Below are positions 28,742 to 38,670 of a stretch of 64,000 bases of DNA, piece by piece. The stretch comes from Urbifossiella limnaea (GTDB lineage: Bacteria > Planctomycetota > Planctomycetia > Gemmatales > Gemmataceae). Location of the stretch: the NCBI RefSeq assembly GCF_007747215.1, contig NZ_CP036273.1:7672322-7736321 (forward strand), given 5' to 3'. How positions within the stretch are numbered: position 1 is the first letter of the stretch; each line of letters starts with the position of its first letter. The translations under genes and the position numbers were made by a program. The notes below the pieces were generated by a model. That model saw nothing but the letters and a program-made list of their open reading frames with translations. It ran no database searches and was not told the origin of the DNA.

Positions 28742-28895
28742 GCTCGGGGCTTGAGCCCGGAGGGCGTCCGTTCATAGCCCGGGGCGGCCTCGGCGGTGTC
28801 TCGAGTGCGTCGCTCCCACGATTCGCGTCGCCGCCCGCCCGGGGTTTCCACCCCGGGCTACACACGGCCGCCCCTCCGGGGCTCAAGGCCCGAGC
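28742..28895. repeat. Imperfect nested inverted repeat upstream of rpmA
   Basis: GCTCGGGGCTTGAGCCCGGAGG near 28742-28764 pairs with CCTCCGGGGCTCAAGGCCCGAGC near 28873-28895, with a nested pair built on AGCCCGGGG and CCCCGGGCT. The layout is like the family C and G repeats, made of gene-end hairpin modules, but with more mismatches. Confidence 0.65.
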
Positions 28896-38444: not shown

Positions 38445-38468
38445 CGGTTTTCAGGCCGAAGGCCTGAC

Positions 38469-38640
38469 AGCCCTCAGCCCAGGGCAAGGGTGCGCAGCAC
38501 CCGCCGCCCTGGGTAAGCGACACGAATCACCCCGCAGGCTGAAGGCCTGCGAGCCGGCTCGCAGGCCTTCAGCCTGCACGGCCATTCTCACCCCGAACCC
38601 AGGGCGGCGGGCCTTCGGCCCTTACCCTGGGCTGAGGGCT
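38469..38640. repeat. Nested cruciform-like repeat block (family G)
   Basis: Three stems are nested. The outer one pairs 38469-38490 with 38619-38640 (21 of 22). The middle one pairs 38502-38514 with 38597-38609 (CGCCGCCCTGGGT). The inner one is a perfect 44-nt palindrome, 38534-38555 with 38556-38577, with no loop. Smaller hairpins (GGCCGAAGGCC, CCCCTTCGGGG) flank it. The block fills the space between the membrane protein start and the sulfatase stop. Confidence 0.88.
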
Positions 38641-38670
38641 CTCACCCCTTCGGGGTGAAAACCCGGCGCG

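Follow-up and report, generated by a model that had tools for sequence, protein, structure and literature searches.

Hairpin repeats that belong with Y1 transposases are known from the REPtrons, which join a RAYT or TnpA_REP gene to REP, BIME and REPIN repeats, and from the IS200/IS605 elements. The available sections of PMC8266576 place the GTAG guide of REPs at the foot of the hairpin, and together with those of PMC6006769 they point to Trp94/Gln95 of E. coli TnpA_REP, Gln95 being among the residues named for contact with GTAG. Subclass 1.2 of the Y1 transposases is defined by the motifs DH[IV]H, WQ and Y---Q--HH and a length of about 148 aa (Quentin et al. 2018, PMC6006769, available text); according to the same text it occurs mostly in Cyanobacteria and Bacteroidetes, is generally without IS200 terminal structures, and has a 'no' in the REP column. 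For the TIRtrons, the accessible part of Di Nocera et al. 2013 (PMC3733652) assigns 20 of 26 TIRYTs to subclass 2.1 with extra C-terminal domains, and describes GGGGWSAS in many of the repeats. Rfam family RF01687, 'Acido-Lenti-1', is entered as a small RNA, and a 2026 paper, in the portion available, reads it as a possible regulator of Tannerella protease genes; a 2023 paper, likewise in its available portion, reports multiple RF01687 copies in chromosome 1 of Vibrio anguillarum J382. Supplements and subscription journals aside, and within the accessible text of each source, no link between RF01687 and a transposase was found in the literature on Acido-Lenti-1/RF01687 or on REP/RAYT/IS200. 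The element described here is likely a non-autonomous mobile DNA repeat of REP/BIME-like kind, whose module would be the recognition end of a subclass-1.2-like Y1 transposase and which would be mobilised in trans.

The element lies in a window of 64,000 nucleotides (the whole stretch of DNA analysed), which is positions 7672322-7736321 of the one contig of 7,795,793 bases that was searched as the host genome. It extends over 38446-38663 (218 bp), both ends being fixed by alignment of 22 copies; an earlier note had the location right, with a span, 38448-38665, that was off by 2 bp. The three nested levels that it described all exist. The outer arms (38469-38490 and 38619-38640) are the claimed 22 bp, with one mismatch, and measure 172 bases end to end; the middle arms (38500-38514 and 38597-38611) are 15 bp long rather than 13; and 38534-38577 is a perfect 44-nt palindrome without a loop. 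Small hairpins likewise stand outside the nest, as had been noted, at 38452-38466 and 38643-38657. The folding energy of 38446-38663 as a single DNA strand is -93.4 kcal/mol; 200 shuffles give -46.2 +/- 3.5 (z -13.5). The whole is built as an inverted pair of two-hairpin modules that point outward around the central palindrome, so that each half consists, from its end inward, of terminal hairpin 2 (5-6 bp with a 3-nt loop), a linker of 11 nt that mostly starts with CTA or CTG, and hairpin 1 (CCCAGGGC...GCCCTGGG, 8 bp), in whose loop one further hairpin is possible. The features below include matches to a model of the module, R1, which was built from 20 modules (set A3), mostly modules adjoining Y1 genes in relatives.

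38446-38663, no strand: whole element, a composite inverted repeat, one of at least 22 genome copies (genome search, 22-copy alignment, pattern census)
38452-38513, minus strand: left Acido-Lenti-1-like module, outward, with an extra hairpin nested in the loop of hairpin 1 (R1, 51.9 bits, E 1.1e-10)
38452-38466, no strand: left terminal hairpin (hairpin 2), CAGGCC-GAA-GGCCTG, with perfect pairing in each of the 21 copies that have both ends
38478-38513, no strand: left hairpin 1, CCCAGGGC ... GCCCTGGG (structure, alignment and R1)
38488-38502, no strand: nested hairpin GGGTGCGCAGCACCC within left hairpin 1, absent from some copies
38534-38577, no strand: central perfect palindrome, 44 nt (structure and alignment)
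38598-38657, plus strand: right Acido-Lenti-1-like module, outward (R1, 46.8 bits, E 1.7e-9)
38643-38657, no strand: right terminal hairpin (hairpin 2), CACCCC-TTC-GGGGTG, its stem unlike the left one (structure and alignment)
28754-28883, no strand: second pair of Acido-Lenti-1-like modules in the window, of divergent type (R1 and sequence)
28838-28883, plus strand: right module of the second pair (R1, 45.6 bits, E 3.3e-9)
28754-28783, minus strand: left module of the second pair, degenerate (R1, 17.3 bits, E 0.015)

Against RF01687 itself, with its gathering score of 37 bits, the right module of the element scores 26.0 bits (E 0.0017) and the left 18.6 bits over 38452-38484; other modules of the host genome do reach the gathering score, as do some modules beside Y1 genes. 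Matches at the window to miRNA and other Rfam families all lay below their own gathering scores and were taken as generic hairpin matches.

The earlier note had allowed for a one-off without recurrence, which does not hold: a genome search in which 40 of 91 candidates were scored found the element at no fewer than 21 other places, at least 22 copies in all. In a census, a 17-nt pattern allowed up to 2 mismatches matched at 49 places and its reversed control at 2; of the 49 matches, 43 fall in the 22 copies, and the remaining 6 carry two mismatches. The copies share their ends (GGTTTTCAGG... and ...CCTGAAAACC, frayed in some) and diverge outside them, 7 pairs among the 44 flanks of about 400 bp matching at E <= 0.001, mostly over 18-83 bases, though L039 and L040 have 179 bases at 73% in common in their right flanks. 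Parts of the centre are lacking in three of the aligned copies (L033 7835, L044 and L046), their palindrome being shortened or absent, and a fourth, L047, is half an element that has no palindrome. No target-site duplication was found in the 22 copies, the longest shared word being 3.81 against 3.60 in mismatched flanks, as is expected for Y1 elements.

Comparison of the copies also identifies the unit that is conserved. In the 21 copies that keep both ends, 252 of 252 end-hairpin pairs are Watson-Crick; as the search pattern demanded CA...TG, the outermost two pairs of every hairpin do not count as independent evidence (no full copy failed the pattern). In 7 of these 21 copies the left and right stems are unlike, and there local pairing is 84 of 84 whereas pairing between left and right arms is 60 of 84. 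The long stem is thus broken in a third of the copies because the end hairpins differ, while the local hairpins remain perfect, so that the conserved unit is the local module, and the long nested stem, considered as the functional structure, is rejected as that unit. The three-level nesting is real, but the weight that the earlier note put on it was less apt; its impression of something modular, assembled from pieces, was well founded, as hairpins change between copies as entire blocks, swapped or missing, and modules in different arrangements are found at further sites of the genome. R1 detects at least 95 modules there (150 of 11,617 candidates scored), 44 of them in the 22 copies; among the remaining 51 are shorter, diverged pairs, including the one at 28754-28883 of the window.

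By a simple codon model 21 of the 22 copies are intergenic, the exception (L043) being overlapped by an ORF, and many lie less than 50 bp from a gene. The genes around the copies are in tandem in 17 cases, convergent in 4 and divergent in 1. Fifteen copies fall within the first 1.34 Mb (73922-1336287) of the 7.80-Mb contig (binomial p 1.7e-7, for a boundary picked after seeing the data). GC skew over 15 sampled stretches did not place a replication origin, and a crude motif search of the first 20 kb found no dnaA.

The host genome has three matches to Pfam Y1_Tnp, one of them strong (E 5e-22, at 118501-118836). The gene concerned, 118408-118851 (G000:C1; L032 6406-6852, minus strand), encodes a protein of 148 aa. 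A copy of the element lies about 35 bp from the start of this gene, with none on the other side, and the genome has no second gene for a short, IS200-like Y1 transposase of the type. The protein has PF01797 as its sole Pfam match (residues 6-117, 81.1 bits, above the Pfam cut-off), narrowly passes NCBIfam transpos_IS200 (NF033573, 56.5 against a cut-off of 55), and fails REP_Tyr_transpos (NF047646, 22.5 bits against 80). Its motifs DHVH, WQ and YIENQEEHH and its length match the subclass 1.2 definitions in the available text of PMC6006769, and by these two features the protein appears to fit that subclass. A search by sequence gave no PDB match for it. The predicted structure of a relative's Y1 protein (locus L123, pLDDT 93) resembles the ISDra2 and IS608 transposases (best E 2.9e-7) and also matches the REP-associated transposase 4er8 (E 7.7e-5). 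Near the host Y1 locus, L032:8960-9081 is a separate long inverted repeat at an ORF edge, which scores 42 bits with a plant miRNA model, short of the cut-off of that model, and possibly belongs to another repeat family.

The link between module and transposase was examined at Y1 loci of other genomes. The test set consisted of the best 80 of at least 570 confirmed Y1 matches in a collection of 84,980 species, and no test locus has a 90%-identical stretch in common with the loci on which R1 was trained. These 80 loci are spread over about ten phyla, among them Planctomycetota, Verrucomicrobiota, Bacteroidota, Acidobacteriota, Kiritimatiellota, Hydrogenedentota, Sumerlaeota, Calditrichota, Ignavibacteria, Fibrobacteres and Armatimonadetes. 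A module at R1 E <= 0.01 lies within 300 bp of the Y1 gene in 67 of the best 80, upstream in 59, downstream in 51 and on both sides in 43; 13 have none at that threshold and distance, and 12 no such match anywhere in the locus. Within 250 bp of the gene there are 3.6 and 3.2 matches per kb on the two sides, and past 1.5 kb there are none; median gaps between module and gene are 71 and 59 bp. The first module upstream is a minus-strand one in 52 of 59 cases and the first downstream a plus-strand one in 45 of 51, such that modules mostly point outward around the gene. This order and close spacing recur from phylum to phylum among proteins that are about 50% identical. No module was found at 20 control loci chosen as Y1 genes of other types (best E 0.93), giving a Fisher p of 1e-12 for 67 of 80 against 0 of 20; the controls were hand-picked from related genomes and the host, were matched weakly or not at all by the Y1 search, and had their types assigned without a tree. 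At L082:1284-2089 (genome G004) the Y1 gene sits inside two inward-facing module pairs, a double bracket that recurs at L080, and the arrangement in G004 suggests that pairs rather than single modules can be the mobile unit.

The Rfam model finds the same association. A search with the host Y1 protein gave 63 matches in 59 genomes, 30 of which were fetched as loci and 28 scanned with Rfam (the host locus, L032, among them; L100 and L103 left out). In the first scan, of 16 sources, RF01687 occurred in 6 of 8 Y1 loci, in some under the gathering score. At 20 further loci, searched with all 4227 Rfam families at E <= 0.5, every one of the 28 matches was to RF01687; they fell in 14 loci, and 27 of the 28 were no more than 300 bp from the Y1 gene, while L089, L092, L096, L098, L101 and L102 had no Rfam match at E <= 0.5. 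In L097, L094, L087, L091, L093, L107, L108 and L095 the matches are typically minus on the low side and plus on the high side, and L099 has modules although its Y1 protein is only 35% identical. The two scans together place RF01687 at 20 of 28 Y1 loci of the host and related genomes.

At the level of genomes, with an RF01687 threshold of E <= 0.001, the family is present in 30 of 59, the host included (22 above cut-off), and Y1 of this type was found in 25 of 59 both with a single-sequence search and with a profile. Both occur in 21 genomes, Y1 only in 4, RF01687 only in 9 and neither in 25 (p 1.6e-5, uncorrected for relatedness). The Y1-only genomes are G016, G018, G022 and G037, the last with a weak module alongside its gene (L085); those with RF01687 only include G001, which is 84% complete, and G042, both with window-like elements. 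None of 14 control genomes has RF01687. Across phyla, the model reaches its gathering score at 9 of 40 loci scanned from the best 80 (3 of 20 and 6 of 20), and in 21 genomes behind such loci (G074 among them being, by size and match positions, identical with G046 of the relatives) RF01687 is present in 19, above cut-off in 16. A stretch of 1.4 kb in the genome of locus L131 (Pirellulaceae KatS3mg111, G077:C1:760288-761685) has nine listed RF01687 matches, mostly alternating, in a BIME-cluster-like array.

Base pairing bears on whether the module is selected as DNA or as RNA. RNA helices under selection are usually richer in G-U pairs, and G-T is a mismatch in a DNA hairpin. Seventy-nine modules (63 distinct) were aligned to the model, a procedure that favours the model's own structure; of the 874 cells 95.8% are paired, and 129 cells are changed on both sides relative to the commonest pair; there are 4 G-U pairs in about 837 paired cells, and the R1 training set has 40 double-sided changes and no G-U. 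This near absence of G-U leans towards DNA hairpins. It stands against the reading of RF01687 as a genuine sRNA that is carried by the transposon, or regulates the transposase, and is spread by transposition. Rfam classes the family as 'Gene; sRNA', the motif scores with that RNA model, and Table 1 of Weinberg 2010, in the available part of that paper, has 'RNA? y' for it and not cis-regulatory; the modules nevertheless flank the gene on either side and face opposite ways, inverted pairs occur far from any Y1 gene, and a simple scan of the window copy, which is weak evidence, found no sigma-70-like promoter and no T-tail terminator. An sRNA, for which the earlier note had also suggested looking, is on these grounds quite improbable.

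Beside hairpin 1, most of the 63 distinct modules read CT[A/G] (C in 60, T in 61; third base A in 36 and G in 21), so that on the opposite strand hairpin 1 mostly has TAG or CAG as its foot, preceded by any base and hence not GT[AG]G, in the place that the GTAG guide has in REPs. That the TAG/CAG foot might act as a guide is our conjecture. The invariant WQ of the Y1 protein recalls, as a motif, Trp94/Gln95 of E. coli TnpA_REP.

It could also be supposed that a Y1 insertion sequence enters the centre of pre-existing repeat pairs without mobilising them, much as ISPpu9 is inserted into REPs in the available account of that element. Gene-less outward pairs exist, and a gene dropped at their centre would yield the order minus module, gene, plus module. 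The tight gaps and the order, however, persist across phyla at about 50% protein identity, none of the 20 other Y1 loci sits in these repeats, and the repeats would need a different mobiliser, so that little likelihood is left to this course of events.

Absence of the element from relatives is consistent with mobility. Three predicted element-free sites were sought in six genomes of the genus, and seven stretches were fetched for two of them. At the site of the L036 copy, G005, G001 and G004 match both flanks and have no module. The site of the L045 copy has no module in G005 and in G001, whose contig ends there; in G002 it is occupied by another inverted pair of modules (59.4 and 56.9 bits), in G003 by other hairpins with one weak module match (23.0 bits). 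The third site (L041) matched in parts only. At the two orthologous sites the element is therefore lacking in most relatives examined. The element-free sites carry other spacers, unlike in length and sequence, and as these do not align to the base the insertion ends are not base-exact. For the window site, relatives have genes for the sulfatase and the aminotransferase, not side by side, and no element-free counterpart was identified. A non-mobile structural repeat (a terminator, mRNA stabiliser or nucleoid site) copied by recombination would suit the intergenic placement close to genes, the single copy between divergent genes and the crowding of copies in the first 1.34 Mb with its boundary chosen afterwards, but is most unlikely given the absences at two orthologous sites, at one of which G002 carries another pair of modules, and the close link to one transposase type across phyla.

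The bracketing of transposase genes, the dispersal, the absence at orthologous sites and the near absence of G-U all point to a DNA element, and transposition is what we infer from them. In the mechanism that we propose for this mobile repeat, the module would fold when in single-stranded DNA (for example, in the lagging-strand template), the transposase would recognise the folded module in one strand and cut near its foot, and it would then move or amplify modules and the pairs made of them; in the host genome the single Y1 gene of this type with its adjoining element copy (118408-118851) would be the trans-acting source. A wider claim, which we hold to be probable, is that RF01687 'Acido-Lenti-1' is the single-stranded-DNA recognition module of subclass 1.2 and not an RNA gene, making up a second REPtron-like system, on the IS200 side and in about ten phyla, with a foot of its own (TAG/CAG) and a two-hairpin module, of which the window element would be a composite non-autonomous form. 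If this is true, an Rfam small-RNA family present in genome annotations is mobile DNA, and subclass 1.2 gains a substrate, such that its biochemistry becomes testable with short oligonucleotides. It would also suggest more than one origin, within the Y1 family, for dispersed hairpins that are linked to a transposase.

Compared with the systems described, the arrangement resembles in plan the REPtrons (RAYT or TnpA_REP with REP, BIME or REPIN), as a Y1 HUH gene is bracketed by short hairpin repeats in inverted pairs, the repeats are also dispersed between genes of the same genome, and whole stems covary. It differs in that the protein is of class 1 type (Y---Q--HH), the module has two hairpins, and GTAG is lacking; membership in the classical GTAG REP/RAYT systems (class 2) is ruled out by the TAG/CAG foot and the failure against NF047646. 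With the IS200/IS605 elements (subclass 1.1) and derivatives of them that carry internal deletions it shares Y1_Tnp, the narrow pass of transpos_IS200, the predicted fold of the relative's protein, similar to TnpA of ISDra2 and IS608, and, in related loci, hairpins at both gene ends. Those elements, in the available text of PMC6006769, have a W[TS] motif where WQ is found here; the gene is present in one copy in the host, in place of small subterminal hairpins there are inverted two-hairpin modules, and many copies are gene-less. As in MITEs, the copies are numerous, share their ends with the autonomous unit and have no transposase gene of their own, the modules pointing outward in both forms. 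The TIRtrons (PMC3733652, available text) are similar in having tyrosine transposase genes (TIRYT) flanked by inverted repeats, some of which belong to dispersed families that include dimers, in hosts that include Acidobacteria; TIRYTs of subclass 2.1 differ by their C-terminal DnaA-like or HTH domain, the protein here being 148 aa with Y1_Tnp only, and the two systems may overlap for some Acidobacteria.

The Acido-Lenti-1 RNA shares the plan of two hairpins, hairpin 1 being followed by GGCUA and hairpin 2 having a short loop. In Rfam it is a 46-nt sRNA, whereas the motif seen here forms a repeat that is arranged in inverted pairs and linked with a transposase, and the window modules depart from the Rfam model in being subthreshold and in the extra hairpin inside hairpin 1. 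The protein agrees with subclass 1.2 (Quentin et al. 2018, PMC6006769, as far as its available text describes the subclass) in its 148 aa, its DHVH, WQ and Y---Q--HH motifs and its low copy number. Unlike the published members, the genes considered here have a cognate repeat (67 of the best 80 loci) and come from more phyla; the published description may have missed the modules, or the genes here may be a separate branch. Dispersed repeats of the REPtron and IS200 kind were already known, and what is new is the link of an Rfam 'sRNA' to a transposase subclass that was without known repeats.
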